Of a stretch of DNA of 64,000 nt, positions 5,727 through 45,343 are shown piece by piece. The notes below the pieces were generated by a model. The model ran no database searches, was not told where the DNA came from, and saw only the letters and a list, made by a program, of their open reading frames with translations. The position numbers were made by a program, and so were the translations under genes. Origin of the DNA: a virus; IMG/VR virus record IMGVR_UViG_3300046455_000489, positions 1 through 64,000 of that record; one strand, 5' to 3'. Numbering within the stretch: position 1 is the stretch's first letter; the number at the start of each line of letters is the position of its first letter.

Positions 5727-5787
5727 CCCAGGCCGCGAGGCGACCGGGCGACAGAACCCGGCGTACAGCCCGACTCGTCTGCCGCTT
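5727..5787 (+). other. attP: attP core candidate resembling the 3' end of rnpB
   Basis: The segment GACAGAACCCGGCGTACAG (5750-5768) carries the conserved signature near the 3' end of bacterial RNase P RNA (ACAGAACCCGGCTTA..). It is followed by CCCGACTCGTCTGCCGC, as in actinobacterial rnpB. The rest of rnpB, including the 5' GAGGAAAGTCCGG signature, is absent. It lies 25 bases beyond the 3' end of the integrase gene and between two identical arm-like repeats. I infer integration into the 3' end of host rnpB, restoring the gene. Edges are approximate. Confidence 0.65.
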
Positions 5788-18481: not shown

Positions 18482-19381
18482 GTGGGAATCCGCCTGTTCG
18501 TCGAGGTTCTGGACTACGCGCCAGACACGCTGACCTGGCGCGAGCGGCACGCCCTGAGCGTCCTGGCCGAGAACGCCAACGACGCCACCAGGGAGTGCTG
18601 GCCCGGCATCGAAGACGATCCGGTCATCGCCCACCGCATGCGCCTGCCCGGTCGGTCGAGCCGGTACGAAGTCATGAAGGCACTGCGCGAGAAGAAGGCC
18701 CTCGAAGGTGTCAGCGCGGGACGCCGAGGCCACCGCGCGGTCTACCGAATCCCCGTCCTCGGCCCCGCAAAGGGTCCGGGAATCCCGGACGCTAACGGCG
18801 AGACAGGGTCCGGGAACCCCGGACATGGCGTCCAGGAAGCCCGGACCCAAACGAACGGACAGCGTCCGGGAACTCCGGACCCTAACCCCGAGAAAGGGTC
18901 CGGGAACGACAGCGATTGGGTCCGGGAACCACATGGAAAGGGTCCGGGTTTCCCGGACCCCTCCCCCTCAGACTCCTCAGACCCCTCAGCTAGCAAGCAA
19001 GAGGGCGAGGCGGATCAGACCTTCGGCATCCCCGAAGCAGCACGCCCCCTCGTGGACGGCCTCACCGCAGCAGGCGTCATCGTCCGCTGGCCGTTCAAGG
19101 ACAACGCCTGGTTCCCGGTCCTGGCCATGATCAGCAAGAGCGGCGTCCCCGCCATGGTCGACCACGCCATGAAGGCCGCCGCACGGACGGACGTTGAGTC
19201 CGCGAACTATTTCCTCAAGGGCTGGCGCGAACTTCCGCCCATGCCCGGCCCCGACGTCGAGCGCCCCAAGCTCCGCCCGGTCGGCGGCAAGAAGCACACG
19301 CCGTACCAGCCACCCACAGATCACTCCGTCTACGAGAGCGGGTTCCACAGTCATGCCCGACCCCAAGCCTCTGGCGAGTGA
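18482..19381 (+). CDS. Lambda O-like replication initiator with internal origin
   Basis: I prefer the GTG at 18482 (VGIRLFVEVLDYAPD), preceded by GAGAGAAG, over the ATG at 18413. Residues about 10-90 form a winged HTH (LTWRERHALSVLAENANDATRECWPG..., SSRYEVMKALREKKALEGV). Residues about 98-175 are a Gly/Pro-rich linker with repeats such as GPGIPD and GSGNPGH, encoded by seven DNA iterons. The rest is a helical domain. A DNA-binding half, an iteron-bearing linker and a helicase-loader neighbour are the arrangement of lambda O and ori. Confidence 0.8.
   Translation: MGIRLFVEVLDYAPDTLTWRERHALSVLAENANDATRECWPGIEDDPVIAHRMRLPGRSSRYEVMKALREKKALEGVSAGRRGHRAVYRIPVLGPAKGPGIPDANGETGSGNPGHGVQEARTQTNGQRPGTPDPNPEKGSGNDSDWVREPHGKGPGFPDPSPSDSSDPSASKQEGEADQTFGIPEAARPLVDGLTAAGVIVRWPFKDNAWFPVLAMISKSGVPAMVDHAMKAAARTDVESANYFLKGWRELPPMPGPDVERPKLRPVGGKKHTPYQPPTDHSVYESGFHSHARPQASGE
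18774..18958. other. ori: Origin of replication candidate: seven phased iterons
   Basis: Iterons begin at 18774, 18808, 18830, 18864, 18898, 18920 and 18942. Three are perfect 17-bp palindromes (GTCCGGG, 3 bp, CCCGGAC), two have one change, and two (18898, 18920) keep only the left half. Spacing is 34, 22, 34, 34, 22 and 22 bp, close to whole helical turns. They lie inside the initiator-like gene, as in lambda. An AT-richer stretch with CCTCAGA repeats follows. Confidence 0.75.
18966..18992. repeat. Three 9-bp CCTCAGA-type repeats beside the origin
   Basis: CCTCAGACT, CCTCAGACC and CCTCAGCTA follow the iterons directly. In lambda an easily melted segment sits at this place; this stretch is less GC-rich than its surroundings, so it could be the unwinding element. 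Confidence 0.45.
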
Positions 19382-24117: not shown

Positions 24118-24525
24118 GTGACCGCCCGCCCCTACCGAATCCTCGTCACCGGAAGCCGCGACTGGCAGGGCATCGGCGTCGTCCGCCGCGCCCTCGCCGA
24201 AGTTCTCGCCATCCTCCCGAACGATCAGCCCCTGGTCGTCGTCCACGGGGACTGCCCGACCGGCGCCGACATCATGGCCAAGGCGTGGGCGCTCACGACC
24301 TTCACCCCGGTCTGCACGGACGACTTCGAGCGCGTCACCGAGGAACCGCATCCCGCCGCCTGGCACGTCCACGGCAACAAGGCCGGTCCGATCCGCAACA
24401 AGGCCATGGTCGACAAGGGCGCCGACGTCTGCCTCGCCTTCATCCGCGGCGGCAGCCGAGGCGCCTCCCACACCGCAGCCCTCGCCGAGCAGGCCGGGAT
24501 CCCGACACGGCGGTGGACCGCATGA
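24118..24525 (+). CDS. YspA/DUF2493-like SLOG-family nucleotide-binding protein
   Basis: 135 residues; GTG start with AAGGAG. RILVTGSRDWQGIGVVRRAL, VVVHGDCPTGADIMAKAW and KAGPIRNKAMVDKGADVCLAFIRGGSRGASHTAALAEQAGIP are the classic Rossmann-like motifs of the YspA (DUF2493) SLOG family. Members are proposed to bind nucleotide-derived ligands and are common in actinophages; their role is unknown. Confidence 0.85.
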   Translation: MTARPYRILVTGSRDWQGIGVVRRALAEVLAILPNDQPLVVVHGDCPTGADIMAKAWALTTFTPVCTDDFERVTEEPHPAAWHVHGNKAGPIRNKAMVDKGADVCLAFIRGGSRGASHTAALAEQAGIPTRRWTA

Positions 24526-25799: not shown

Positions 25800-26114
25800 C
25801 TAGAAACGGCCCGTGCAGGCGAGGCAGATCCGAGCCACGCTCCAGTCCGCGAGCGACGCCTGATACCGCTGAACCCCGGCATGCATTGCCGCACCCGAGA
25901 CCAGACCGGCCACCGCCACCAGCAACCCGAGCAGGACCGCGCCCGACACCACGAATGCGATCCCCGCCCCGACCGCCAGCAATGCCATCCACGCCTTCAC
26001 CTCAGGCTCTGACGGCGGCGCGTACTTCACCCGCAACGGCGACTCCGCCGGCAACGACTGCCAGTAGTGCGACAGCCTCTCGACGTTCGTCGACGAACAC
26101 GCCTTGCACTCCAT
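25800..26114 (-). CDS. Zinc ribbon plus two-TM membrane protein (104 aa)
   Basis: I chose the ATG of MECKACSS, preceded by GGAGG. CKAC at the start and CLAC at the end can form a zinc ribbon, with two membrane helices between (WMALLAVGAGIAFVV and VLLGLLVAVAGLVSG). Architecture resembles small membrane-anchored ribbon proteins. Unknown role. Confidence 0.65.
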   Translation of the reverse strand: MECKACSSTNVERLSHYWQSLPAESPLRVKYAPPSEPEVKAWMALLAVGAGIAFVVSGAVLLGLLVAVAGLVSGAAMHAGVQRYQASLADWSVARICLACTGRF

Positions 26115-26220
26115 GCCAACCTCCGACGCCCACGCCACAGTTGACGGCAGGTTGGCCAGCGCAGAAGACGGCGGCAAGAGCTACTGACGGGTCCGTGAGC
26201 GGAGCCACAACCCAAACGGC

Positions 26221-26255
26221 GCGAGGGCCCCACCCGACACAGGCGGAGCCCTCGC
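26221..26255. terminator. Hairpin between leftward genes
   Basis: GCGAGGGC and GCCCTCGC pair (26221-26228 with 26248-26255) with a 19-nt loop, downstream of the 47-residue gene at 26320. Confidence 0.5.
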
Positions 26256-26319
26256 GTAGCAGTGCGACTACAGCGCGCTGAGCTCGTACATCCCCGGCAG
26301 CCGGCCCAGTGGCACCCGC

Positions 26320-26463
26320 CTACTGGGCGGGCTGGCCGCTCCCCGGGCACATCTCCCGACTGCCCTGCGGCTGATGCGGCGCCGTCGGATCACCCGGCTC
26401 CGCACCCCCATACGCCCCGCACACCGGGCAGCAGGCCGAGCACTCGACAGGATCGACGCGCAT
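26320..26463 (-). CDS. 47-residue zinc-ribbon microprotein
   Basis: Short leftward ORF with GAGGGAG eight bases before its ATG. It reads MRVDPVECSACCPVCGAY..., then PQGSREMCPGSGQPAQ, with two cysteine pairs in a zinc-ribbon spacing and a proline-rich loop. The composition and ribosome site make it a likely gene. Confidence 0.6.
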   Translation of the reverse strand: MRVDPVECSACCPVCGAYGGAEPGDPTAPHQPQGSREMCPGSGQPAQ

Positions 26464-26540
26464 GAGCAGCTCCCTCAAACGACGGAACAGTGCATCGTGC
26501 GCAACCCACAGTGAGGCAGCCGGCCAGCCGCGGGAAGGGC

Positions 26541-26930
26541 TCAGACCAGGCGCACGAAGGCGCGCTCGCCGTTATGGAAGAACGCTGTCAGGCCGTGGCT
26601 AGCCTTGTCCCCGGCGGCCGACCACACCTCGATGCGCTCCGTATCCACAGGCTCCGCCGCACCGATCAACCCAGCCAGCCAAGCATCAGCCGGACCATCC
26701 ACCGGCGCCGCCGAAAACGCGGGCGGACCGGCCTGAACCGCAGCCGTCGGCGAGTCATGCTTCGCACCATCCGCCAACTGCCCGATCACCTGCCAACGCA
26801 GCTCCCGGCCACCCACAGAAACAGCCAGAGCACACGGCTGCTTACCGCCCTCCAACACCTCCACACGCTGCACACCAGGAGTGTTTTTCAGCAGGTCAAC
26901 CAGGTAGTCGCGGTAATTCCTCGGGCGCAT
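26541..26930 (-). CDS. Hypothetical protein (129 aa)
   Basis: Starts MRPRNYRDYLVDLLKNTPGVQRVEVLEGG, a helix-strand unit, with a beta-rich core (ALAVSVGGRELRWQVIGQLA) and C-terminal strand HNGERAFVRLV. Soluble, no motif. Recurrent type in Streptomyces elements. Confidence 0.65.
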   Translation of the reverse strand: MRPRNYRDYLVDLLKNTPGVQRVEVLEGGKQPCALAVSVGGRELRWQVIGQLADGAKHDSPTAAVQAGPPAFSAAPVDGPADAWLAGLIGAAEPVDTERIEVWSAAGDKASHGLTAFFHNGERAFVRLV

Positions 26931-27043
26931 AAGGAGAGTCCTCTCGTGGTGGCCTAGGTCAGCCTAGGGGTGGATGAGCGGGCAGGAGACGGAAGGGCAG
27001 GTGATGCGGGCGAGCCGCCAGCGGAGCCGGTATAGGGGGCCGG

Positions 27044-27805
27044 CTAACGCGGGAATCTGGTCAGCCAGGCAGGCAGCGGCTTGTCGTCCTGGCTGTAGTG
27101 CTGCAGCGCGTACTTGAAGCTGAGTAGGTCGACCTCGCGGACCGACTGCAGGGCCTCGGGATCCTCGCGGCCGAGCTGCGCGAGCGTCTTCTGCCGCTGC
27201 TGCCGGTATACCTGCGGGCGCTTCCTCTCGAACTGCAGCAGCAGGCGGCGGAGTCGGTCGTCGGGGAGCTTGTCGGCCGCGTCGTACAGCCGCTTCAAAT
27301 CCGGCGCCAACTTGCTCTCGCGCGCGACCTCGCCCGCACGAGCGGCAGCGAGCGCGGAGGAATGTTGGTCGCCGGCATCTTCTTCATCCGTACTTCGTCG
27401 GTCAGTACTTCCTGAAGAGGTACCGCCCGCCGACGTCGCGCTGGCCGACGTGCCGCCCGCCGACGTACCGCGAGCGGTACCCCGGTCCTGTGGGACGTCA
27501 TAGATCTCCAGCACGGTCACGAACCGGCCCTTCGCCGCCTTCTCCTTCCGTCGGATGATGTAGCCGGCCACTTCCAATTCGGCGAATGCGGAGCGCAGTC
27601 CGCGCCTGCCCTCGCCGACGACGTCCCCGCGGTGCCGACGGGCCCGGTCCGACAAGGCGTCGGCGTTCGTCTCCCAGCCCTCGGGGCGGGTGAGCAGCTC
27701 GGCCAGTACGCCCCGCGCGCAGTACGTCAGCCGGTCGTCCCGCAGGGTCGCGTTGGGAAGGATCGTGAAGTTGTCGGCCGGACGCGACCGACGGATCTTC
27801 AGCAT
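27044..27805 (-). CDS. Second replication-initiator-like protein with iteron-encoding linker
   Basis: 253 residues from MLKIRRSR, chosen for GAGGTG upstream. Residues about 10-110 form a winged HTH (FTILPNATLRDDRLTYCARGVLAELLTRPEGW..., RGLRSAFAELEVAGYIIRRKEK). Residues about 110-140 are five-residue repeats (GTSAG, GTSAS, ATSAG, GTSSG), encoded by tandem 15-bp DNA units. The rest is helical and basic. This resembles plasmid or phage initiators with the origin in the linker. It could equally be a regulator, so I call it initiator-like. Confidence 0.65.
   Translation of the reverse strand: MLKIRRSRPADNFTILPNATLRDDRLTYCARGVLAELLTRPEGWETNADALSDRARRHRGDVVGEGRRGLRSAFAELEVAGYIIRRKEKAAKGRFVTVLEIYDVPQDRGTARGTSAGGTSASATSAGGTSSGSTDRRSTDEEDAGDQHSSALAAARAGEVARESKLAPDLKRLYDAADKLPDDRLRRLLLQFERKRPQVYRQQRQKTLAQLGREDPEALQSVREVDLLSFKYALQHYSQDDKPLPAWLTRFPR
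27390..27480. repeat. Six tandem 15-bp units (second origin candidate)
   Basis: Units begin at 27390, 27405, 27420, 27435, 27450 and 27465, each starting GT(A/G/C)C. The last forms an inverted repeat GTACCGC-GA-GCGGTAC. They lie in the linker-coding part of the initiator-like gene. Part of the periodicity comes from the five-residue protein repeat. Confidence 0.55.
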
Positions 27806-27892
27806 TCGCTGCACCTCGCGGCGTGAGCGCGCGCCAAAAGAATCATGGGAGTCCTAGGTGTTGCGCGGGCTGCAACGCCCGCTGATCTGCGA

Positions 27893-27922
27893 AGCGGCCG
27901 GACGATGATCCGTCCGGCCGCT
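27893..27922. terminator. Terminator between leftward genes
   Basis: Perfect 12-bp stem (27893-27904 with 27911-27922) with a 6-nt loop. It follows the stop of the leftward gene at 27948, upstream of the initiator-like gene. Confidence 0.8.
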
Positions 27923-27947
27923 GTTGTTGCCGTGGGCTGCCAGGTGG

Positions 27948-28265
27948 CTACGCCGCTGCGGCGAGGTCCGTTAGCTCGAACGGCGCAGGGAGGGGCGGCA
28001 TGGGCACGCTGTACGCGCTGCCGATCATCGAGCGCGCCACCATCTCTCGCTCCCAACGGTTCTGGCCGGTCGGCATCCGGAGCGCCATACGGCCCTCGTG
28101 TACAACGGCGTAGCCGCACGCAGGCAGCCGCTCTGCGGGGCGCTCTTCCAGTTCCACCCCAAGTTCCGCGAGCAGCTGGGGGAGTGGAGTGTCGAGCAGG
28201 TAGTCGGCGGAGAGAGCCGAGACGGGGGACACAGAGACGGCGGCCTCAGGGGTTGCTAAGGTCAT
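27948..28265 (-). CDS. Hypothetical protein (105 aa)
   Basis: Alanine/valine-rich start, then LLDTPLPQLLAELGVELEERPAERLPACGYAVVHEGRMALRMPTGQNRWEREMVARSMIG. Soluble, possibly DNA-linked by location next to the initiator-like gene. Family not recognised. Confidence 0.65.
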   Translation of the reverse strand: MTLATPEAAVSVSPVSALSADYLLDTPLPQLLAELGVELEERPAERLPACGYAVVHEGRMALRMPTGQNRWEREMVARSMIGSAYSVPMPPLPAPFELTDLAAAA

Positions 28266-28330
28266 GGGAAGAGCTCCGATCTCAACGGGTTGGGTTCTTG
28301 ATCAGCGAGTGGCGACTCGCTTTGATCTTC

Positions 28331-28358
28331 AGGCCGGGTGGTGGCGACCACCCGGCCT
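28331..28358. terminator. Hairpin in the divergent gap before the GntR gene
   Basis: Perfect 11-bp stem (28331-28341 with 28348-28358) followed by TTCTCGT on the plus strand; another small hairpin (AGCGAGT/ACTCGCT) lies just before it at about 28304-28321. The 318-bp gap 28266-28583 otherwise holds the regulator's promoter and operator and no convincing gene. Confidence 0.6.
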
Positions 28359-28512
28359 TCTCGTGTTCGAGGGCCTCCCATCTGGCGTTCCACGTGGAAG
28401 CTGTGCGTACAGTGGTCCGTGGGCACGTGGACATGACCTGGCGGCGGGCGCAGCCCTTCTTGCCGCAGGTCAAGCCTCTGCGTACTTGTGGAACTACTGG
28501 ACTACGGTCCGC

Positions 28513-28530
28513 GACCTAGACGTGTAAGTC
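28513..28530. promoter_or_regulatory. Operator OA of the HutC/GntR regulator
   Basis: GACCTAGACGTGTAAGTC is a near-palindrome (GAC-TA-ACGT-TA-GTC). It lies 54 bases before the regulator start and matches the two sites at 29412 and 29451, so I infer autoregulation. Confidence 0.75.
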
Positions 28531-28583
28531 AAGCGGGTCGTAAGAACTGCCCTCAAAGGGGCCCGAATGGTGGAGGGAACGGC

Positions 28584-29330
28584 TTGGCTGGGAGCAAGCT
28601 CGGGTACAAGGAGATCGCCGACGAACTGCGCGCACGCATCGAGCGCGGCCAGTACCGTCCCGGCGATCCAATCCCCAGCGAGTCTGAAGTGATGGCGGAG
28701 TTCACCGCCGGGCGTGAGACCGTCACCAAGGCGCTCCGTCTCCTCCGCGACCAGGGCCTCACCGTCGGCGGGCAGGGCAAGCCGGCCACCGTTCGGGACT
28801 TCAAGCCGATCCGCCGCTACGCCAACGAGCGCCTCTCGCGCGACGTTTGGGGCGGCGGCACCTCCATGTGGGCGGTCGACGTCCGCAACGCGAAGCCCAA
28901 GGTGGCCGGGCTGGAGGTCGACACCTTTGAGGCCTCCGCTCGCGTGGCGGAATCCCTTGGCCTGCGACGCGGGGAGTCTGTAGTCCGCCGCCGCCGCCAC
29001 TACCTGCTCGACGGGCGGCCCGTCCTCATGTCCGACTCGTACATCCCGCTCGACCTTGCCGAGGGCACGCCGATCATGGAGCGTGACACCGGCGAGGGCG
29101 GGATCTACAACCGCCTCAAGGACGCAGGGCACGGGCCAGTGCGCTTCAAAGAGGAAGTCCGCGTGCGCATGCCCAACGCTCGGGAGCTCGCGGTGATGGA
29201 GCTCGCGCCCGGCACTCCCGTCGCCTGCGTCGTGCGCACCGCTTTCGAGGAAGGCGGCCGGGCTGTCGAGGTCAACGAGATGACCCTGGACGGCGGCTCG
29301 TACATCCTGGACTACGTGATCGAGGCGTAG
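28584..29330 (+). CDS. HutC-subfamily GntR regulator (KorSA-like)
   Basis: 248 residues from a TTG start with GGAGGG seven bases before it; the longer frame is not coding-like. N-terminal winged helix: GYKEIADELRARIERGQYRPGDPIPSESEVMAEFTAGRETVTKALRLLRDQGL. C-terminal HutC-type UTRA ligand domain from about residue 90 (SVVRRRRHYLLDGRPVLMSDSYIPLDLA..., GGSYILDYVIEA). In Streptomyces conjugative elements such proteins (KorSA, TraR) repress transfer and excision genes. Three matching operators flank the gene. Confidence 0.88.
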   Translation: MAGSKLGYKEIADELRARIERGQYRPGDPIPSESEVMAEFTAGRETVTKALRLLRDQGLTVGGQGKPATVRDFKPIRRYANERLSRDVWGGGTSMWAVDVRNAKPKVAGLEVDTFEASARVAESLGLRRGESVVRRRRHYLLDGRPVLMSDSYIPLDLAEGTPIMERDTGEGGIYNRLKDAGHGPVRFKEEVRVRMPNARELAVMELAPGTPVACVVRTAFEEGGRAVEVNEMTLDGGSYILDYVIEA

Positions 29331-29347
29331 CGACAGCTGCCTCATCT

Positions 29348-29378
29348 GGGCTCCCACCTAGCGGTGGGGGCCCTTTTT
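29348..29378 (+). terminator. Intrinsic terminator after the GntR gene
   Basis: An 11-bp stem with one G-T pair (29348-29358 with 29363-29373) and 4-nt loop, followed by TTTTT: one of the few classical terminators in this genome. Confidence 0.92.
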
Positions 29379-29411
29379 CATGCCCGCTTCGACGTGGAAC
29401 TCGAAGGGCTT

Positions 29412-29468
29412 GACTTAGACGTGTAGGTCGGCGCACTCTTGGAACACGCCGACCTACACGTCTAAGTG
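29412..29468. promoter_or_regulatory. Double operator OB/OC of the GntR regulator
   Basis: GACTTAGACGTGTAGGTC (29412-29429) and its inverted partner (29451-29468) form a perfect 21-bp inverted repeat (29413-29433 with 29447-29467) around a 13-bp spacer. Each half is itself a near-palindrome matching the 28513 site. It lies upstream of the Xis-like gene, so the regulator should control the plasmid-like block. Confidence 0.8.
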
Positions 29469-29508
29469 GGGAAGGCGGAGCCCATTCCTGCCTACTCCGG
29501 GAGCTCCC

Positions 29509-29751
29509 TTGAGCCACGACGCCCCGGCCGCGGACACCGTGGCCGAAGCCCCCCAGTTCTTGAACGCGGCCGAAGTTGCCATTCGGCTCCGCGTCTCCCG
29601 TTCCACCGTCTACAACCTGATCGCCTCCGGCCGGCTCACCGCCCACCGCAACGGAGGCGGCAAGATCCGCCCCCGCGGAGTGCGGGTCCCCGAGGTCGCC
29701 GTGACGGCGTACCTGGCCGACTCCCTCATCGCACCCTCGGAGGTGGCGTAG
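29509..29751 (+). CDS. Excisionase-like MerR/HTH_17 protein (80 aa)
   Basis: TTG start with GGGAG upstream. FLNAAEVAIRLRVSRSTVYNLIASGRLTAHRNGGGKIRPRGVRVPEVAVTAYL is the HTH_17 form common to Streptomyces excisionases. Behind the double operator of the GntR regulator, matching the KorSA-controlled layout of integrative elements. With the gene at 8782 this gives two Xis-like proteins. Confidence 0.8.
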   Translation: MSHDAPAADTVAEAPQFLNAAEVAIRLRVSRSTVYNLIASGRLTAHRNGGGKIRPRGVRVPEVAVTAYLADSLIAPSEVA

Positions 29752-29753
29752 CC

Positions 29754-29978
29754 ATGAGCACCGCAACCCCGTCCCTGTCGCTCGCCCCGGCCATCGTCCG
29801 TGCCGTGACCGTGCATGAGACGGCCGCCCTCCACCGTTCCGCTCTGGCCGAGCTCGCCGAAGCCGGTCAGTTGTCGGACCTGGACGCGGAGGGCTTCGCC
29901 GTCGCCGAGGAACTGATCGCCGGCTCCCGCGCCACCCTCGCCGCGGCCGGGATGCTGTACCTGATCGAGGTGGCCTGA
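29754..29978 (+). CDS. Small helical protein (74 aa)
   Basis: ATG two bases after the previous stop. Alanine-rich helices (HETAALHRSALAELAEAGQLSDLDAEGFAVAEELIAGS). Unknown. Confidence 0.6.
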   Translation: MSTATPSLSLAPAIVRAVTVHETAALHRSALAELAEAGQLSDLDAEGFAVAEELIAGSRATLAAAGMLYLIEVA

Positions 29979-30190
29979 TGACCGCCTACACCCCGCTGCG
30001 TTCCTCGGGTGAGCCGCAGGCGATGCACGCCCTCCTGGAGTCGGAACTCCAGTGGGCCGGCACGGCTCTTGCCAGGGTGGCCGACGCGAACCTTCACGAC
30101 CATGACGCGATGCTCGATGCCGCGGTCGACCTCTATCTCAGGCTGCGGTCGCTCGTTGCCGCGGTCGAGGCTGAGCGAGGCGGTGCGTGA
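29978..30190 (+). CDS. Small helical protein (70 aa)
   Basis: TGATG coupling. Helical, with WAGTALARVADANLHDHDAMLDAAVDLYLRLRSLVAAVE. Unknown. Confidence 0.6.
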   Translation: MTAYTPLRSSGEPQAMHALLESELQWAGTALARVADANLHDHDAMLDAAVDLYLRLRSLVAAVEAERGGA

Positions 30191-30345
30191 TGGCGACCGT
30201 GACTGAGCCGCGGATGCCGGCCGAGTTCTCCGACGACCTGGACCAGGCCCTGTACCGGGAGACCCGCACCCAGGTTCCCGCCGAGCAGCGGACGACGTGC
30301 CCCGTGCACCTCGACTGGACCGACCGCTGCCGCAGCTGGCACTAG
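30190..30345 (+). CDS. Small protein with CPVH...C motif (51 aa)
   Basis: TGATG coupling with the previous stop; end at TAG 30343-30345. TTCPVHLDWTDRCRSWH could bind a metal. This short gene completes the operon before a terminator. Confidence 0.6.
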   Translation: MATVTEPRMPAEFSDDLDQALYRETRTQVPAEQRTTCPVHLDWTDRCRSWH

Positions 30346-30359
30346 CCGGCCCCTGATCG

Positions 30360-30406
30360 GCCGCGCTGGCGGGGATGACGTTCCCCCGCGGCCCCCGTCA
30401 GCGCGG
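30360..30406. terminator. Terminator
   Basis: A long imperfect stem (GCCGCGCTG-GCGGGG with CCCC-CGTCAGCGCGGC) in the gap 30346-30462. Confidence 0.7.
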
Positions 30407-30462
30407 CTCTCCACCCCGCACCACCCCTTCCCATTCCGTTGATCCACGTGAAAGGCACCCCC

Positions 30463-30687
30463 ATGTCTGTTCTGACCCTCGTCCCGGCCGCCAGTGACCC
30501 GTTCGACGCCGCTGAGGCCGACGTGCGAGCCCGCTACGTATCCGCCTACCTGGCCGACGACCGGGCCGGTGACGTGATCGCCCGCGACTGGACGCTCTAC
30601 GAGATCGAGATGTACGACGCCGCGAACCCCGGCCAGCCGCCGCTCATGGACGAGATTCGCAGCCTCGACTACCCGGCCGCCGCCTGA
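30463..30687 (+). CDS. Hypothetical protein (74 aa)
   Basis: ATG with AAAGG upstream. Helical and acidic (FDAAEADVRARYVSAYLADDRAGDVIARDWTLYEIEMYDAA). Unknown. Confidence 0.6.
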   Translation: MSVLTLVPAASDPFDAAEADVRARYVSAYLADDRAGDVIARDWTLYEIEMYDAANPGQPPLMDEIRSLDYPAAA

Positions 30688-30780
30688 CCGCAACCCCAGC
30701 CCCGGCCCGGCCAGTACGGGCGTCCGCAGCAAAGCAGGCCGGGGCACGCACCACACCCGAACCCGACCCGAGAGGACTCC

Positions 30781-30948
30781 ATGAAGAGGCACTTCACCGC
30801 CACCGTCCGCGATCACCGCACCGGCGAGGTCACCACCGCGACCGGCACCACCACCGTTCCGGACGACAGGCAGGCCAAGGCCGCGATCCAGGACGAGGTC
30901 CGCAAGCTGCCCGGCCGCAAGACCGCCACCGACATCGACCTGTACTGA
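30781..30948 (+). CDS. Small basic protein (55 aa)
   Basis: GAGAGGA before the ATG. Beta-rich start with threonines (FTATVRDHRTGEVTTATGTTTV), basic helix, acidic end. A small gene in an otherwise empty 290-bp gap; good ribosome site supports it. Confidence 0.6.
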   Translation: MKRHFTATVRDHRTGEVTTATGTTTVPDDRQAKAAIQDEVRKLPGRKTATDIDLY

Positions 30949-30976
30949 CCTTCAACTCCCGCTAGGAGAGCCCGTC

Positions 30977-31183
30977 ATGCGCCGTCATCCCATTCTCTGG
31001 TCGCTGCTTGTGGCGTTCCTGATGCTCGTCGGCGCATGGCCGGCCGCCGCAGCCCCGATCGGTCTGGCCGGCGCCGGCCTCGGTGTCGTCATCGGTGCGA
31101 TCCCCCTGCCGATCCTCGCCCTGGCCGCCGTCGTCGTCTGGGAGTGGCGGCACCGGCACACCCCCAAGCCCGCCACCGCCTGA
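30977..31183 (+). CDS. Small membrane protein with signal-like N-terminus (68 aa)
   Basis: MRRHPILWSLLVAFLMLVGAWPAAAAPIG looks like a signal sequence or first TM; a second hydrophobic helix (VVIGAIPLPILALAAVVVWEW) follows. Probably a two-TM protein, maybe of the Spd (spread) type found by transfer genes. Confidence 0.65.
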   Translation: MRRHPILWSLLVAFLMLVGAWPAAAAPIGLAGAGLGVVIGAIPLPILALAAVVVWEWRHRHTPKPATA

Positions 31184-31212
31184 CCACCCACTGACCCTTG
31201 AAGGGAGCGGTT

Positions 31213-32517
31213 GTGACCGCCATGTCCGTCGAGAAGCAGGTCAACGGCACGTCCGTGGCCTCGCCCGAGCTGCGGTTCGACCCGCGCGCGCTGGCCGAGG
31301 CGGAGGCGATCCGTACCCGAGCCGCCGCCGAAGCCGACGCGGTGCGCACCAAGGCCGAGGCCGAGGCTGAAGCAGAGAAGATCCTCGCTGTCGAGAAGGC
31401 GGAGAAGGAGCGCATCGCCAACGAGCGTGCGGCGATGCGCCTGGAGAAGGACAAGGCCGACCACCGGGCGCACCTCGCCAAGAAGGCCGCCGAGACGGCC
31501 AAGGCGAACGCGGAGGAGGAGAAGGGCAAGAAGGCCGCCGCCGAGAAGGAGGCAGCCGAGTCGAAGCATGTCGCTGAGCAGCAGCGCTCCGAGCAGTGGT
31601 GGAAGTGGGGCGCCCGCAGTATCTACGCGGTCGGCCTGGTGATCGCCGCACCGGTGCAGCTGATCCACTTCTGGGACCCGGCGCGCAAGTTCCTCATCGC
31701 GGCCCCCGTCCTCCTGGAAGGCCTGGCCCTCGTCCTGGCGTTCGGTGCCACATGGGCGGTCGCCCATCGCCGGGACGTCGCCCCGTACCGGGTCGGCATC
31801 ATGCTCGGCGCCGCCATCGCCGCCGGCATCAACATGTACGGCGGCCTGTCCGACGACCGGATCGGCTTCAACGCCGGCCTCATCGGCGCCATCGCCTCAC
31901 TCGGCGGGCCGATCGTTCTCATGGCCTACGAGCACGGCATCGCCCAGAAGGCCGACGGCATCCCGTCCTGGCGAGAGCGACGCAGCGCCGACAAGGCCGC
32001 GGAGGCGGAGGCCGCTGCCGTCGAGCGGGCGCGCCTGGAGAAAGAGGCGGCCGAAGCTGCTGCGGCGGCCGAGAAGAAGGCCGCGCAGGAGCGTGCCGAG
32101 GAGGAGCAGCGTCGCCGCGACGACGACCGGCGCGAGGGTCACCCGGAGGTTTGGAAGACCGCCGAGGCGATGCGTTCGGCGCGCGGCTCGCAGTACGTCA
32201 CAGAGCAGATCTGGGCCGAGGCCTGGTACCGCAAAACCGGCTCGAAGCTCGTCGGTGTGACCGCCGAAATTGAGGCCGAGTCGCGCGCCGCGCAGGCCCG
32301 CATGCAGAACGTCACCAGCACACCGATTATCGGTGAGTTTTCCCTGATCGAATCCCAAAAGGGTCCCCGCGAGAAGCGTGACCCCAACGCCCCCGACGGG
32401 CGCCGCAACAACGGCGGCACCCCGCCCGTCCGCCGGGCTGGCGAAAGCGCCCCGCACCACCCCCTCGCACGCAAGCAGGCGTCCGTCGAGCAGACCACCG
32501 AGAAGGACTCGAAGTGA
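31213..32517 (+). CDS. Spd/DUF2637-like membrane protein with coiled coils
   Basis: 434 residues from the GTG after AAGGGAG. Residues about 30-130 are a long charged coiled coil (Ala/Glu/Lys-rich). Four membrane helices lie between about 135 and 245 (SIYAVGLVIAAPVQLIHFW, FLIAAPVLLEGLALVLAF, VGIMLGAAIAAGINMYGG, AGLIGAIASLGGPIVLMAY). A second coiled coil follows to about 310. Such proteins (DUF2637 or Spd group) accompany FtsK-type transfer genes in Streptomyces and help plasmid spread in mycelium. Its stop overlaps the translocase start. Confidence 0.7.
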   Translation: MTAMSVEKQVNGTSVASPELRFDPRALAEAEAIRTRAAAEADAVRTKAEAEAEAEKILAVEKAEKERIANERAAMRLEKDKADHRAHLAKKAAETAKANAEEEKGKKAAAEKEAAESKHVAEQQRSEQWWKWGARSIYAVGLVIAAPVQLIHFWDPARKFLIAAPVLLEGLALVLAFGATWAVAHRRDVAPYRVGIMLGAAIAAGINMYGGLSDDRIGFNAGLIGAIASLGGPIVLMAYEHGIAQKADGIPSWRERRSADKAAEAEAAAVERARLEKEAAEAAAAAEKKAAQERAEEEQRRRDDDRREGHPEVWKTAEAMRSARGSQYVTEQIWAEAWYRKTGSKLVGVTAEIEAESRAAQARMQNVTSTPIIGEFSLIESQKGPREKRDPNAPDGRRNNGGTPPVRRAGESAPHHPLARKQASVEQTTEKDSK

Positions 32518-34649
32518 GCATCGAAAGGATCCCCAGCGGCACACCCGACCCCGAGTGGGAGCAGCTCGTCGCCGGCTACCTCAATACCCCCGTGCCCGAG
32601 CCGGCCCTGCAGTCCGCCGGCCCGGCCGCCGCGACGCCGACACTCCCCGCCGACCCGATGGGCGACACCCCCCTCGTTCCCGAATGGACGCGCACCACCG
32701 GCGGATGGAAGAGCCGCACCACCGTCGGCCGCGTCAACTCCACCCGTACCTTCCGCAAGTGGATCCGCCGCCAGAAGACCCAGCACGGGCACGGCGCCCA
32801 GACGTTCCGCGGCCTGCGCCGCACCTTCCACTGGATCCAGGGCACCGAAGGCGCACAGATCACCGCCGCCCGACACGAACTGCAGCAGACGCAGCGCGAC
32901 TACAAGACCGCCAAGTGGGCCCACGACCGGCGCCTCGTCCCCGGCAAGGAGAAGGAGAAGCGCCGCAAGGACATGGAGAAGTCGTTCGCCGAGTCCGCGT
33001 CGGCGATGAACAAGTACAAGTCGGCCCAGCGGGATGCGCGCCTGCGCCGCCTCGGTCGCGGTGCCGTCGCTCTCGGGCCGATCGCTGCCGCCGAAGGAGC
33101 CGGCCTGTCCCTCCTCGGCGGGCCCGGCGGACTCCTCGCCACCGGGGCAACCCTCCTCACCTTCGCGCTCCTCGGCCGCCGCACCGACGCGGGGGAGCTG
33201 TACACCGACCGCGACGCGAAGATCGGCGACGGTGACCGGATGACCGACGAGATGGTCAACCGCGTCTACCGGGACGCCCGCGTCATCGCCGCCGACGACA
33301 TGCTCAGCCTCGTCACCCCCTGCACGCTCACCGCCGACGGAACCGCCTGGGCCGTCGTGTTCGACCTGCCGTCCGGGGTGCCGTCCAAGAAGGCGTTCGG
33401 GGCGGCCGACGGGATTGCGGGAGCGTTCGGTGTGTCCGTCCAGCAGATCAGCCAGCGCCGCGGCGACCGCGAAGGCCGCATCCGCCTGCGGGTCGCCCTG
33501 CGGATGCCGTTCTCCGGCGTGACTCCGCAGGGCCCGCTTCTGACCGCCGAACGGATCAACCTGTGGCGCGAGATCCCCATGGGCGTCGACCAGCGGGGCG
33601 AAGGCGTCGAGGTGTCCTGGGTCGAACGGTCTGGGCTGTTCGGTGGCGAGCCCGGATCGGGCAAGTCCGCGGCAGCCAACGACCTGCTCCTTGCCGCGGC
33701 CCTCGACCCGACCGTGTCCCTGTACCTCGCGGACGGCAAAGCCGGCGCCGACATCACCCCGTTCGAACCCATCGCCGCCATGTACGACACCGACGGCGAC
33801 CCCCTCCAGATGCTCGCCATCCTCGAACACATCTGGAACGTCGAGATCCCGGAGCGGCGCGCCCTGGCCAAGGAGCACGGCTCCAGGAAGTTGACCGAGG
33901 CCATGGCCGCCGTGGATTCCCGCGTGCGCCTGGCGGTGCTCCTCGTCGACGAATGGTCGTCCTACGGTGCCGCCGCACCGCCGAAGATCCGCGAAGAGAT
34001 GGAACGCCTGCTCCGCCTGATCGTCCAGCAGGGCCGAGCGCTCGGCATCATCACCCTCGCCGCCACGCAAAAGCCCGACGGCGACTCCGTCCCGACCGGC
34101 ATCCGCGACATCCTGTCGATCCGCTGGGCGATGCGCTGCCTCACCCCACAGGCCTCCGACACGATCCTCGGCCAGGGCTACGCGGCCACCGGGCACAACG
34201 CCCAGACGATCCTCAAGTCGCAGCGCGGCGTGGGCATCCTCATGTCCGGCGAGGCCGCCGAACCGGACCTCGTCATCAGCCACTACTACGACGACGACGA
34301 GGTCGCGGCCATCCTGCGTCGGGCCCACGCCCTGCGGCAGGAGGCGGGCACCCTGCCCGTCACCGTCGAGCCCGAGATCACCATCCTCGACCACCTGATC
34401 AAGGCGGCATCCGCGACCGGCCGCGGCGTGGTCACCCGGGCCGAACTGTTCGCCTACCTCGCCGGCGTCGACGAGCAGTACGCACGGACCGAGGGGGAGA
34501 GCGACGCCGCCTACAACGCGCGCGCCGGCCGAGCCCTCGCCGCCGCCCTCGACGCGCAAGGCGTGAGCGTCGACGCGGTGAAGGTGCCCACCGAGGACGG
34601 CGGCCGGTCCATGGGCTACCGCCTCGAAGACCTCAACGCCACCCGATAA
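32514..34649 (+). CDS. traB-like: FtsK/SpoIIIE-type DNA translocase, TraB-like
   Basis: 711 residues. A basic N-terminal part precedes two membrane segments at about 185-222. The motor has Walker A GEPGSGKS (378-385) and Walker B VLLVDEW (D479, E480), then an ATQKP motif. The C-terminal 90 residues (GRGVVTRAELFAYLAG...GYRLEDL) fit the winged helix by which TraB proteins read 8-bp repeats at clt. In Streptomyces plasmids one such protein suffices to move double-stranded DNA between mycelial cells. An array of short repeats follows the gene directly. An FtsK-like packaging or segregation role is the alternative. Confidence 0.85.
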   Translation: MSIERIPSGTPDPEWEQLVAGYLNTPVPEPALQSAGPAAATPTLPADPMGDTPLVPEWTRTTGGWKSRTTVGRVNSTRTFRKWIRRQKTQHGHGAQTFRGLRRTFHWIQGTEGAQITAARHELQQTQRDYKTAKWAHDRRLVPGKEKEKRRKDMEKSFAESASAMNKYKSAQRDARLRRLGRGAVALGPIAAAEGAGLSLLGGPGGLLATGATLLTFALLGRRTDAGELYTDRDAKIGDGDRMTDEMVNRVYRDARVIAADDMLSLVTPCTLTADGTAWAVVFDLPSGVPSKKAFGAADGIAGAFGVSVQQISQRRGDREGRIRLRVALRMPFSGVTPQGPLLTAERINLWREIPMGVDQRGEGVEVSWVERSGLFGGEPGSGKSAAANDLLLAAALDPTVSLYLADGKAGADITPFEPIAAMYDTDGDPLQMLAILEHIWNVEIPERRALAKEHGSRKLTEAMAAVDSRVRLAVLLVDEWSSYGAAAPPKIREEMERLLRLIVQQGRALGIITLAATQKPDGDSVPTGIRDILSIRWAMRCLTPQASDTILGQGYAATGHNAQTILKSQRGVGILMSGEAAEPDLVISHYYDDDEVAAILRRAHALRQEAGTLPVTVEPEITILDHLIKAASATGRGVVTRAELFAYLAGVDEQYARTEGESDAAYNARAGRALAAALDAQGVSVDAVKVPTEDGGRSMGYRLEDLNATR

Positions 34650-34659
34650 CAACTGGTTT

Positions 34660-34798
34660 GACCCTGGACAGTGCCTGGACGGCACGCCGTCCACCCTGGA
34701 CACCCGCGCTCGACCCTGGACATCCCCGTCCAGGGTCGAACCCCCCAAGTCCAGGCACTGTCCAGGCTCCCACCTGCACAAACGCCAGCCAGTCCAGG
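34660..34798. other. clt: clt-like array of eight CCTGGAC motifs
   Basis: CCTGGAC occurs in one orientation at 34663, 34674, 34695 and 34715, and as GTCCAGG at 34728, 34749, 34760 and 34792. Spacings are 11, 21 and 20, then 21, 11 and 32 bp, near multiples of one helical turn. CCTGGACAGTGCCTGGAC (34663-34680) is the exact reverse complement of 34749-34766, and TCGACCCTGGAC (34710-34721) pairs with 34728-34739. TraB of pSVH1 binds repeats of GACCCGGA; here GACCCTGGA sits just after the traB-like gene. Transfer locus is inference; a terminator or partition site is possible. Confidence 0.7.
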
Positions 34799-34846
34799 TC
34801 GTGTCCACGCTCCACCCGCCCAGCCAACCCTCGCCAGGAGCCCCCA

Positions 34847-35299
34847 GTGCCCACCGAGACCAACCCCGCCATGACCGACGCGGAAGCCGCCATCGAGGCC
34901 CGCCGCATCATCACCGACTTCGCCACCGCCTACCGAGACCACACCCCCGTCCCGCACGTCGGTGCCACCCCGCCGGTCCCGCAGCCCGGCCGCCCGCCGA
35001 TGAGTCAGGGCGCTGTCGACGCGAGCACGGTGATGCTGTCCGCCGGCGTCGCCTCGCTGCCTGTCGGCGCCGTTGCCATCGGCGTGCTGCTCGCCTCCGG
35101 GCACGCAGACCCGACCGTCATCGGCATGATCTGCGCCGCCCCCGCCGCGCTCGCCGTCCCGATCCTCGCGATCGCCCGGCTCGTCCGCGGGGCCAAGCCC
35201 GAGCCCGACGTCCACCACCACTACAGCGGGCCCGTCGACCAGCGGCACGTCCACACGACGACCAGGGGCGTGTGGGCCAAGACCAACAACCAGCAGTAG
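34847..35299 (+). CDS. Two-TM protein downstream of the translocase (Spd-like)
   Basis: 150 residues from GTG 34847, with CAGGAG upstream. A soluble helical N-terminus of about 65 residues, then two hydrophobic helices (STVMLSAGVASLPVGAVAIGVLLAS and PTVIGMICAAPAALAVPILAIARLV), and a histidine-rich tail (VHHHYSG). Position after the traB-like gene suggests a spread protein. Confidence 0.65.
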   Translation: MPTETNPAMTDAEAAIEARRIITDFATAYRDHTPVPHVGATPPVPQPGRPPMSQGAVDASTVMLSAGVASLPVGAVAIGVLLASGHADPTVIGMICAAPAALAVPILAIARLVRGAKPEPDVHHHYSGPVDQRHVHTTTRGVWAKTNNQQ

Positions 35300-35310
35300 A
35301 AGGAGCGCAC

Positions 35311-35481
35311 GTGATCTATTACGACAAGACCGGAAGCCGGATCTACCGGCCCCTCCAGCACCGCACCCCACGGCCCGACAGCCCACCCGGCAACGAGCAA
35401 CCGAACTGCGGGGCACCCGGCGGCCACCCCGAGGACCACCCGACCATCGGCCGAACGCCCGGCGACGGCACCCGCGAGTAG
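35311..35481 (+). CDS. Small hypothetical protein (56 aa)
   Basis: GTG start with AAGGAG. MIYYDKTGSRIYRP then a proline-rich stretch. Unknown; end of the plasmid-like operon. Confidence 0.6.
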   Translation: MIYYDKTGSRIYRPLQHRTPRPDSPPGNEQPNCGAPGGHPEDHPTIGRTPGDGTRE

Positions 35482-35506
35482 GCATGCGACCTGAACCGCT
35501 CCCTGG

Positions 35507-35528
35507 CACCCCCGGCCAGCCGGGGGTG
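35507..35528 (+). terminator. Terminator
   Basis: CACCCCCGGC pairs with GCCGGGGGTG (35507-35516 with 35519-35528), followed by TTCTCGTT. Confidence 0.8.
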
Positions 35529-35618
35529 TTCTCGTTCCGGTGGAACCTCGCCCCGACCCGTCCGTAACCTGCCCGTCCGCCGCTAGCATCCCGACTCCGT
35601 ACCGTCCTTGGGGGGACC

Positions 35619-35966
35619 ATGACCAACCTGCCGCCAATGCCCACCGCGCCGCCCACGCCGCCGGCAGCGAGGAGACGCACCGGCTGGATCATCGCCGCGT
35701 CCATCGCCGCCGTGCTGGCCATCATCACGACCGTCGTGTGGATGAACGGAAGGTCCTACGACGACACCGTCGCAGCCTGCGAGAAGGCGCTCGCCGTACA
35801 GACGAAGGCAGGCGGGCAAGGGAAACCGGACGCCTGCGACGAGGTGAAGCAGGACGACTACGACGCGCTGGTCGTGGGCGCGGTCCTGAAGTACGGCATG
35901 ACGCAGAAGGACCGGGACACGCTCGACTACTACGACAACGGGACGATCGACGGCAGCATTGGTTGA
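35619..35966 (+). CDS. Membrane-anchored extracytoplasmic protein (115 aa)
   Basis: GGGGGGA site and ATG. A proline-rich cytoplasmic start, one membrane helix (GWIIAASIAAVLAIITTVVW), then about 70 soluble residues with two cysteines (AACEKAL and DACDEVKQ) that could form a disulfide outside the cell. It stands alone between terminators, like a lysogenic conversion gene or moron. Confidence 0.7.
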   Translation: MTNLPPMPTAPPTPPAARRRTGWIIAASIAAVLAIITTVVWMNGRSYDDTVAACEKALAVQTKAGGQGKPDACDEVKQDDYDALVVGAVLKYGMTQKDRDTLDYYDNGTIDGSIG

Positions 35967-36053
35967 GGTCAGCAGGAACGGAACCCTCAACCACAACTTG
36001 ACACTTCAGCCCCACCGAAGCCATGATCTGCTCAGATAGCCTTCGTGCGCTTT

Positions 36054-36079
36054 GAGGCCCACCCCAACCGGTGGGCCTC
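36054..36079. terminator. Terminator
   Basis: Perfect 10-bp stem (36054-36063 with 36070-36079), 6-nt loop, ahead of the gene at 36105. Confidence 0.8.
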
Positions 36080-36104
36080 AGCCAATTCCCGGGGGAGGTG
36101 CACG

Positions 36105-36332
36105 ATGCCCTCAGGGCTCGTAACAGCCGCCGACGCCGCCTACTACGCCGGCGTCCCCGTCGGCACCATCTGGCGCTGGGCATCCGAAGGGCGCATCAGC
36201 CGGCACGGCCACGGCAAAGCCACCCGGTACAGCGTGTTCGAGCTCAACAAAGCCCACCGCGACGAGTGGACGCGCCAGCTCATCGAGCCCGGCAAGCCGC
36301 CACCGCTGCCCGCGGGAGCGAAGGCGGCCTGA
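36105..36332 (+). CDS. HTH_17-type DNA-binding protein (75 aa)
   Basis: I chose MPSGLVTAADAAYYAG, with GGGAGGTGC upstream. LVTAADAAYYAGVPVGTIWRWASEGRISRHGHGKATRYSVFEL is a MerR/excisionase-like HTH. It begins the rightward run into the packaging genes and could regulate late expression. Confidence 0.75.
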   Translation: MPSGLVTAADAAYYAGVPVGTIWRWASEGRISRHGHGKATRYSVFELNKAHRDEWTRQLIEPGKPPPLPAGAKAA

Positions 36333-37507: not shown

Positions 37508-37903
37508 TTGAGTGAAATTCCTGCCGGTCTCGGTTCCCGTGGCTCTCGGCTCTGGCGGGATGAGACGGCCTCTGGCTCTCTGACTCCTGCGCATTCGCTG
37601 CTGCTGGAGGAGGCTTGCCGTCTCGCTGACCGGCTTGATTGGCTCAACTCGATTCTCCTGCGGGCCTGTTCGCCGGTCAAGGCGAATGACGAAGACGATG
37701 AGGGTGAATCTCCGGCAATCGGGCCCCTTCTCGCGGAAGCCCGGCAGCAGCAGACGGCTCTTCGAGGACTTGTGGCGGAGATTCGGCAGGGCTTGAAGGG
37801 TTCGGCGACGTCTTCGCCGTCACCGGCGGAGAGTTCGGGGGGTTCTGGTGTCTCGGACCTCACGGCGCGCATCAATGACAGGCGCGCGCAAGCCAAGGGT
37901 TGA
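37508..37903 (+). CDS. terS: Terminase small subunit
   Basis: I prefer the TTG at 37508 (LSEIPAGLGSRG), preceded by GGAGGGGC, over an ATG at 37487. The 131-residue product is helical, with a SPxxSG-rich tail and C-terminal helix SDLTARINDRRAQAKG, as in actinophage small terminases. It would recognise the packaging site and stimulate the large subunit, whose gene overlaps it. Confidence 0.75.
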   Translation: MSEIPAGLGSRGSRLWRDETASGSLTPAHSLLLEEACRLADRLDWLNSILLRACSPVKANDEDDEGESPAIGPLLAEARQQQTALRGLVAEIRQGLKGSATSSPSPAESSGGSGVSDLTARINDRRAQAKG

Positions 37904-39380
37904 GCTGGCACCGCCCTACGAATACACGCTCGGGCCGGAGGCGTGCGAGCTCGCCAAGCGGGCCGGCCTGGTCCCGGATCCCTGGCAGGCGGACGCGGTC
38001 AACCTGATGCTGGCATGCCGGGACGACGGCAAATGGGCGTGCTACGAATTCGGCGAAATCGTGGCCAGGCAGAACGGCAAGGGCTCGATCCTGGAGATCC
38101 GCGCTCTGGCTGGCCTTCTGCTGCTAGGCGAGCAGTTGATCATGTGGTCCGCTCACGAGTACAAGACCAGCATGGAGGCGTACCGGCGTTGCCGGACGCT
38201 TCTGCGGCGGCTCGGCAAGCAGGTCAATCCGAACAACGAGAACCTGTGGGACGTCGACGGCGTTCTCATCAAGTTCGTCAATACGAACGGCGAGGAAGGC
38301 TTCGAGCGCCTCGACACCGAGGCCCGCATCAAGTTCGTGGCTCGCAGCAAAGGTTCGGGCCGCGGGTTCTCCGGCGACCTCGTCATTATCGACGAGTCTT
38401 TCGCCTTTACGGCGGAGCAGCAGGACGCGCTGATGCCCGCGATGGCGGCCCGCCCGAACGCGCAGATCATCTACACGTCGTCGCCGCCTTTGAATGGCGA
38501 GTCCGGCGAGGTCATGTTCAATCTGAAGCGCCGGGCGGATGCGGGCGGCGACGACAGTCTGGGCTGGCGGGACTGGGGGATCGAGGGCGACCTCGACCAC
38601 CTCGACGACATCGACCTGGATGACCGCCGGTTGTGGGCAGCCTCGAACCCAGCGCTCGGGATGCGACTGACGGAGGAGACGATCCTTCGCGAACGCCGCT
38701 CGATGGGAAACGCTGGCTTCGCGCGGGAACGGCTGTGTATCTGGCCGAAGATCTCGCAGGGCAACACGGTCATCGACACGGCGGCCTGGGCGCGGCTGGC
38801 GGATCCGGGCTCGCAGCGCGACCGAGAAGCAGGCGTGGCGGTCGGCGTCGACATCAGTCCCCTGCGGGACTACGCGGCGGTGTGCGTGTACGGGCTGCGC
38901 GAGGACGGTCTGGGGCATACGCAGGTCGCGGACTACCGGCCGGGCACGAAGTGGCTGGTACCGCGGCTGGTCGAGCTGCGGGAGGCGCTCGGTCCGGTGT
39001 CGGTGGCGATGGGGCGGGGCACGTTCGCGTTCCTGGACACCGACCTGGACAAGGCTGGATTCCAGCGGCCGGACGATCTGGAGGTTCCGGAGTCTGGCGA
39101 TCTGGCGGTGACGAACGCGGTCGATATGGCTGCCGCGGCTGGCCAGCTGCTGGAGGCGGTGCGCGAGGAGTCGTTCCGTGTCGTTCCGAACCGGCATCTG
39201 GATGTGGCGGTCGCGTCGGCGAAGACGCGGCAGACCGGCGACACGATCGCGTGGACGGTGAAGGGCGTTGAGGGCGACATCAGCCTGCTTGTGGCGATGA
39301 CGCTGGCCCGCTGGTCCTACGTGACCCGGTCGCATCTGCTTGAGGGCAGCCAGTACGACGTTCTGCAGTCGATCTGTTAG
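37875..39380 (+). CDS. terL: Terminase large subunit
   Basis: About 501 residues (start MTGARKPRVELAPP). ATPase: YEFGEIVARQNGKGS as Walker A (RQNGKGS type), LVIIDESFAF as Walker B, then TSSPP coupling motif. Nuclease domain begins with VGVDISPLRDYAA and keeps further acidic residues. The product cuts concatemers and pumps DNA into the prohead. The 29-base overlap with terS suggests coupling. Confidence 0.92.
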   Translation: MTGARKPRVELAPPYEYTLGPEACELAKRAGLVPDPWQADAVNLMLACRDDGKWACYEFGEIVARQNGKGSILEIRALAGLLLLGEQLIMWSAHEYKTSMEAYRRCRTLLRRLGKQVNPNNENLWDVDGVLIKFVNTNGEEGFERLDTEARIKFVARSKGSGRGFSGDLVIIDESFAFTAEQQDALMPAMAARPNAQIIYTSSPPLNGESGEVMFNLKRRADAGGDDSLGWRDWGIEGDLDHLDDIDLDDRRLWAASNPALGMRLTEETILRERRSMGNAGFARERLCIWPKISQGNTVIDTAAWARLADPGSQRDREAGVAVGVDISPLRDYAAVCVYGLREDGLGHTQVADYRPGTKWLVPRLVELREALGPVSVAMGRGTFAFLDTDLDKAGFQRPDDLEVPESGDLAVTNAVDMAAAAGQLLEAVREESFRVVPNRHLDVAVASAKTRQTGDTIAWTVKGVEGDISLLVAMTLARWSYVTRSHLLEGSQYDVLQSIC

Positions 39381-43690: not shown

Positions 43691-43798
43691 GTGGAAGAGC
43701 ACGTGTTCATCGTGACGTTGGAAGCCTCTGGCGAGGTCACTCGCGCGCAGCCTGCCGATGACGCCGCTGAGCCGGATCCCGAGGAGGTCGAGCAGTGA
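43691..43798 (+). CDS. 35-residue protein
   Basis: GTG start two bases after the previous stop and GTGA overlap with the next gene. VEEHVFIVTLEASGEVTRAQPADDAAEPDPEEVEQ: strand then acidic tail. Plausible by its position in the operon. Confidence 0.5.
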   Translation: MEEHVFIVTLEASGEVTRAQPADDAAEPDPEEVEQ

Positions 43799-44202: not shown

Positions 44203-44217
44203 TTTAGACTTAGAGGT

Positions 44218-45318: not shown

Positions 45319-45343
45319 ACGCGGCCCTGGCAGGGAGGCCGTC

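Follow-up and report, generated by a model that had tools for sequence, protein, structure and literature searches.

The stretch analysed here, called the window, comprises positions 1 to 64,000 (64,000 nucleotides) of the IMG/VR virus record IMGVR_UViG_3300046455_000489. Between the early genes of a phage and its terminase gene lies a block (positions 25,800 to 36,332; Table 1) that resembles the transfer region of conjugative Streptomyces plasmids. The parts that a preliminary description had named in this block were all found: an initiator-like gene (by phrog families), a GntR/HutC-family regulator (by its UTRA and GntR domains), a Xis-like gene (by TIGR01764), Spd-like membrane proteins (one homologous to SpdB2, two others with two hydrophobic segments each), an FtsK/TraB translocase (by PF01580, plasmid TraB matches and a TcpA/FtsK fold) and a clt-like array of eight repeats. 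The anatomy of the block and its homology to plasmid transfer genes are established.

The TraB-like protein, a double-stranded DNA translocase of 711 residues by homology, has its closest non-phage relatives among the TraB proteins of conjugative Streptomyces plasmids; the best plasmid matches are of the pSVH1/pFP11 type, with 42.7% identity to pSVH1 TraB over 597 residues. Its motor, residues ~350-612, is FtsK-like and confidently predicted in an AlphaFold model, for which Foldseek returned the conjugation coupling protein TcpA and FtsK as the best PDB matches. Residues 624-710 show a helix and strand order of the winged-helix type (pLDDT ~87). Residues 183-221 contain two moderately hydrophobic stretches, equal to those of pSVH1 TraB, that fall below the strict cut-off and in a low-confidence region of the model. 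In plasmids, TraB is a single FtsK-like protein, in which helix alpha-3 of a winged helix-turn-helix domain reads 8-bp clt motifs (PMC4170104, PMC3583192). PHROGs holds a phage/prophage family for the window protein, phrog_1358, and PADLOC gave weak matches only, to other ATPases.

The clt-like array begins directly behind the traB stop codon. Eight of the 41 genome-wide copies of its 7-mer are found within 136 bp (0.09 expected; Poisson 1e-13), and elsewhere the count per 230-bp interval never exceeds 2. Dinucleotide shuffles of the 231-bp clt region itself gave a weaker signal (82/5000), since the repeat makes up that region. Relatives, pSVH1 and pFP11 have homologous arrays in the corresponding position. 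Most relatives with a clade-1 TraB carry arrays of differing repeats there, and a GACCTGC box near clt is common to the plasmids and many of the phages.

Variation in these repeats follows variation in the protein. For 35 TraB proteins, we compared motor identity, similarity of the C-terminal domain and the profile of repeats in the 200 bp that follow traB. The domain and clt similarities correlated at 0.67, and the association persisted given motor similarity (partial Mantel r=0.54, permutation p=0.0005). The motor of relative L004 is 97-98% identical to those of relatives L007, L008 and L013, whereas its C-terminal domain and its repeats are unrelated to theirs. Conversely, the window phage and L006 share the same repeat and a domain similarity of 0.77 at a motor identity of 60%, and L004 and L009, also at 60%, reach 0.88 in the domain and 0.81 in clt. 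The recognition domain and clt thus change jointly, and whole arrays change together with matching partners kept, a pattern that loss of mismatched pairs would produce. This co-variation speaks for selection on self-recognition of the phage DNA and for a system that has apparently been maintained in a functional state. The natural swaps of domain and clt also provide a ready-made code table between protein sequence and short DNA target.

Relatives of the module were found in 14 IMG/VR contigs and 6 cultured Streptomyces genomes, at identities of 41-76%; L011 and L014, L015 and L016, and G037 and S. wuyuanensis probably represent the same strain or element in each case. The traB frames are full-length and open in ~20 elements, and TerL lies downstream of traB on the same strand, 3.6-18.3 kb away, in 16 of the 20 records searched. 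A 56-kb prophage of S. wuyuanensis has the order integrase, early genes, GntR, Spd, TraB, a homologue of the 150-residue protein that follows clt, HTH gene, TerL and tail. A 42-bp repeat derived from the rnpB 3' end borders it on both sides, and a neighbouring contig that overlaps the left end of the prophage by 95 bp runs into host DNA, so this prophage is integrated. S. parvus carries a like prophage of 90.7 kb, with an 18-bp flanking repeat. The position of the module is conserved in these integrating prophages. The TraB membrane domains of the phages form one clade (support 99/96) and the motors two; judged by its sequences, the TraB/clt module is old, phage-owned and mosaic.

In the wider lineage, a clade-1 TraB match occurs in 10 of 22 long records. 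The notion that the module is missing from part of this lineage was dropped, since a divergent P-loop translocase occupies the same site in all three of the apparently lacking records that were inspected. These very divergent translocases are likewise followed by arrays, of the CTGCTCA type, and by the same GACCTGC/GACCAGC box. Pfam did not recognise them as FtsK, so their function is presumptive.

The module resides in a complete phage genome. The full IMG/VR record is 69,908 bp long and without host flanks, and its first 6,615 bp recur exactly as its last 6,615 bp, which gives a unit of 63,293 bp that is either circular or terminally redundant. Virion genes found include those for TerL, portal, prohead protease, an HK97-type capsid protein and a 1,560-residue tape-measure protein. 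With packaging, head and tail genes, an integrase and an att site all present, the gene content identifies a temperate tailed phage (Caudoviricetes). The earlier label of a complete siphovirus holds for the virion genes and the terminal repeat; the long-tailed morphology is what such genes would predict. The attP core, adjoining the integrase gene, corresponds to the 3' terminus of rnpB, the host gene for RNase P RNA (Rfam RF00010 fragment, E 8e-6). It shares 44 bp of identity with the S. wuyuanensis att repeats and is identical to the 42-bp repeat that borders that prophage; in another Streptomyces, the complete rnpB gene terminates in nearly the same sequence. This phage type integrates at rnpB, as seen in the integrated copy of S. 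wuyuanensis. A search for close phage relatives at the DNA level found none.

We interpret the block as probably a phage-owned, working TraB/clt DNA-transfer module that moves the phage genome without virions. That it is a working translocation module we hold with good confidence; for transfer between mycelia, rather than spread within one mycelium only, we judge the chances evenly balanced. TraB would act as a membrane-anchored, FtsK-type hexameric pump whose C-terminal winged helix would recognise the 7-8-bp repeats that the phage itself carries immediately behind traB. Together with the SpdB2-like protein and the small membrane partners, it could carry the phage genome, excised as double-stranded circular DNA, through hyphal septa and probably also, virion-free, into a contacting mycelium. 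In the quiescent state, the GntR repressor, bound at three operators, would hold the transfer operon off. Binding, pore formation, transfer, timing and regulation are what we infer from the parts present.

For the lineage as a whole, it is conceivable, at slightly less than an even chance in our estimate, that widespread integrating Streptomyces phages have a second, virion-free route of spread through TraB, with swaps of domain and clt conferring private transfer specificity like that of a conjugation immunity group. If so, ordinary-looking Streptomyces prophages would be viruses and conjugative elements at once. This would change the picture of how lysogeny spreads in mycelial bacteria and of how chromosomal DNA is mobilised; plasmid TraB probably acts on chromosomal clt-like sites too (PMC4170104).

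Several points weigh against a virion-free transfer module. The C-terminal domain of the window TraB shows no sequence resemblance to the pSVH1 domain (score 0.03); its predicted fold alone is compatible. Because clt adjoins the codons of the recognition domain, one recombination tract can move both, and part of the co-variation can arise in this way. In six relatives (L005, L010, L011, L022, L025 and L026), the array does not rise above shuffles at the 7-mer level. Finally, use of the module could be limited to segregation or to spread inside one mycelium.

This last alternative, in which DNA passes through the septa of one mycelium or is segregated into compartments or spores with no transfer between strains, accommodates the Spd-type genes, which serve spread within the recipient mycelium (PMC4170104), as well as the O-like initiators of the phage and its circular or terminally redundant record without host flanks. 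However, a search for ParA in the window phage found none, the same parts yield inter-mycelial transfer in pSVH1, and diversification of the recognition domain with clt is better explained by elements telling self from non-self than by plain housekeeping. We consider confinement to one mycelium rather unlikely. Far less probable is an accessory role of the FtsK-like protein in packaging DNA or in timing lysis. Its gene lies directly before the terminase, and its position upstream of TerL is constant, but the phage has a normal set of TerL, portal and capsid genes, and tblastn detected no TraB homologue in INPHARED phages, whereas conjugative plasmids without virion genes have homologues. A packaging role would also leave SpdB2, the clt arrays and the clt-linked change of the recognition domain unexplained. 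A chance insertion of an integrative conjugative element or a plasmid into one phage, or a chimeric assembly, might account for the mild shift in GC content and skew across the block and for the plasmid-like parts, but is practically negligible and refuted by synteny: many metagenome and isolate records, independent of one another, hold the block in this position, among them an att-flanked prophage, the phage TraB membrane domains form their own clade, and the order int-early-tra-late is conserved end to end.

Table 1. Features of the window, with the divergent translocases of three related records
Feature	Position	Strand	Evidence or remark
attP core, 3' end of rnpB	5743..5787		RF00010 fragment
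Tyrosine integrase	5812-7191	-	adjoins attP core
Initiator-like gene	18482-19381		contains the array below
Iteron-like array, GGTCCGGGAAC	18763-18948 (18.76-18.95 kb)		strongest repeat array of the genome
YspA/SLOG-family gene	24118-24525		PF10686; early region
104-residue protein with CxxC pairs (zinc-ribbon-like), one hydrophobic segment	25800..26114	-	44-50% homologues in two relatives
Winged-helix replication-initiator-like gene, GC-rich internal repeats	27044..27805	-	phrog_1456/37920/4707
Tandem repeat within the preceding gene	27423-27471
Operator-like 13-mer AGACGTGTAAGTC, before GntR gene	28518..28530	+
GntR/HutC-family repressor (KorSA-like)	28584..29330	+	UTRA E 1e-25; GntR E 9e-16
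Operator-like inverted repeat AGACGTGTAGGTC...GACCTACACGTCT, before HTH/transfer operon	29417..29463		inverted pair at 29417/29451
HTH_17/excisionase-like gene	29509..29751	+	PF12728; TIGR01764 above cut-off
Run of small open reading frames, HTH gene to Spd genes	29754..30948	+	gene model; homologues at same place in some relatives
68-residue protein, two hydrophobic segments	30977..31183	+	Spd-like by position
SpdB2-like coiled-coil membrane protein (spread protein)	31222..32517	+	hydrophobic segments
traB-like translocase gene	32514..34649	+	PF01580 above cut-off
clt-like array, four CCTGGAC then four GTCCAGG	34663..34798	.	directly behind traB stop
150-residue protein, two hydrophobic segments	34847..35299	+	directly 3' of clt; phrog_19266 E 5e-50
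Second HTH_17/MerR-like gene	36105..36332	+	PF12728; late-gene border
Terminase large subunit	37875..39380	+	phrog_9 E 2e-69; start of late region
Cassette of HNH gene and adjoining minus-strand frames	43737-45840		HNH gene at 45094-45318
Tandem repeat, 135 bp	52757-53036		within tape-measure gene
Second tyrosine recombinase, 295 residues	62903-63790		far from integrase
Divergent P-loop translocase, CTGCTCA/CCTGATC arrays behind	G026:C1:32831-34843 (L183)		traB site
Divergent P-loop translocase, CTGCTCA/CCTGATC arrays behind	G023:C1:33712-35808 (L187)		traB site
Divergent P-loop translocase, CTGCTCA/CCTGATC arrays behind	G031:C1:45958-48213 (L191)		traB site

Around traB, the smaller genes of the block recur in relatives. 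The SpdB2-like protein aligns with pSVH1 SpdB2 (hhalign 98%, E 3e-14) and with a DUF2637 protein of pFP11 (98%). Homologues of the 68-residue protein, 46-56% identical, lie upstream of Spd and TraB in relatives, the 150-residue protein keeps its position in relatives, and homologues of the second HTH gene, 60-77% identical, lie between traB and the terminase gene in several of them. The GntR/HutC regulator has homologues in pSVH1, pFP11 and the phage relatives. The 13-bp motif AGACGTGTA[GA]GTC occurs in only 3 copies genome-wide, and these three putative operators and the GntR gene likely form a Kor-type circuit.

The initiator-like gene of the block matches phrog_1456 (E 9e-22) and phrog_4707, annotated as replication initiation (E 1e-9); the relatives that were compared yielded no counterpart. 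Another initiator-like gene contains the strongest repeat array of the genome; this array is not clt and is probably a replication origin. As the initiator-like gene of the block also has internal repeats, the phage may have two origins.

Other features lie outside the block. Two relatives (G006 and G010) encode homologues of the second tyrosine recombinase, 84% identical, in the same position, and a recombinase of plasmid pFP11 is similar to it (36%). The phage encodes a RecE-like exonuclease, the early region holds a YspA/SLOG-family gene, and the tape-measure gene contains a tandem repeat. The HNH cassette, 63-92% identical in L015/L016 and G023, follows the capsid gene in the window, but lies between traB and the terminase gene in those relatives, and is possibly mobile.

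At the sequence level, the module resembles the pSVH1 transfer system in its TraB-homologous motor, its predicted C-terminal winged helix, its clt repeats beside traB, and its Spd and GntR/Kor-type genes. Like the window, pSVH1 (NC_007431) and pFP11 have the order GntR, small open reading frames, SpdB2, TraB and clt repeats with a GACCTGC box; the array at this place consists of CCCGGA/GACCCGG repeats in pSVH1 and, in pFP11, of the same CCTGGAC repeat as in the window. Unlike the window, the plasmids have no phage genes, with a plasmid Rep in pSVH1 and a relaxase in pFP11, and the window TraB differs from theirs in its C-terminal recognition domain and its phage-specific N-terminus. Phage-plasmids of the P1, N15 and SSU5 types combine phage genes with plasmid functions; the window lineage is set apart from them by rnpB integration in its kin, by its lack of a detected ParA and by its conjugation-type double-stranded DNA pump.

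The preliminary description had regarded the block as the parts of an actinomycete integrative conjugative element (AICE). AICEs such as pSAM2 and SLP1 (Ghinet et al. 2011, PMC3218068) do share with the window a site-specific integrase, a xis-like gene, a GntR/KorSA-like regulator and an FtsK-domain Tra, but the window phage has a full virion gene set and a phage-type initiator, and is larger than a typical pSAM2-like element. Int and Tra are present, a search for Prim-Pol found none, and RepSA was not searched for; a DUF3631/RepAM search gave no match, but its control matched nowhere either. Given the lack of a detected Prim-Pol, the phage-type initiator and the phage-only clade of TraB membrane domains, the block is not an integrated AICE. 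Actinomycete TraB/clt parts do stand inside a real phage lineage, and the module is best described as phage-adapted rather than inserted.

A hybrid of virus and transfer element, of which the preliminary description knew no described case, has a precedent in the Streptomyces plasmid-phage pZL12 (phage ZL12, NC_013420), and so is not new in principle. Replication, transfer and a lytic cycle are attributed to it (Zhong et al. 2010, J Bacteriol; via PMC3583192, PMC4487206): the title of the 2010 report names the plasmid and lytic phage cycle, and its conjugal transfer is cited in later work (PMC3583192). TraB/clt modules in integrating phages were not found described in the literature searched, most subscription journals lying outside that search. 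Like the window, pZL12 is a Streptomyces element that joins a phage structural operon to plasmid-type transfer, and its map runs from GntR through small open reading frames, a membrane protein, the FtsK-like gp071 and gp070, a homologue of the 150-residue protein, to the terminase region. The protein gp071 has no PF01580 match and is at best very distant from the window TraB (hhalign 42%, E 3e-4; blastp E 3.0), scores that do not support a shared translocase type. pZL12 further differs in having no repeat array behind gp071, in its annotated ParA/ParB and in its plasmid life, whereas the kin of the window integrate at rnpB. The present group differs from pZL12 in pump type, clt, integration and breadth and, if our interpretation holds, would make that precedent one case within a wider pattern.

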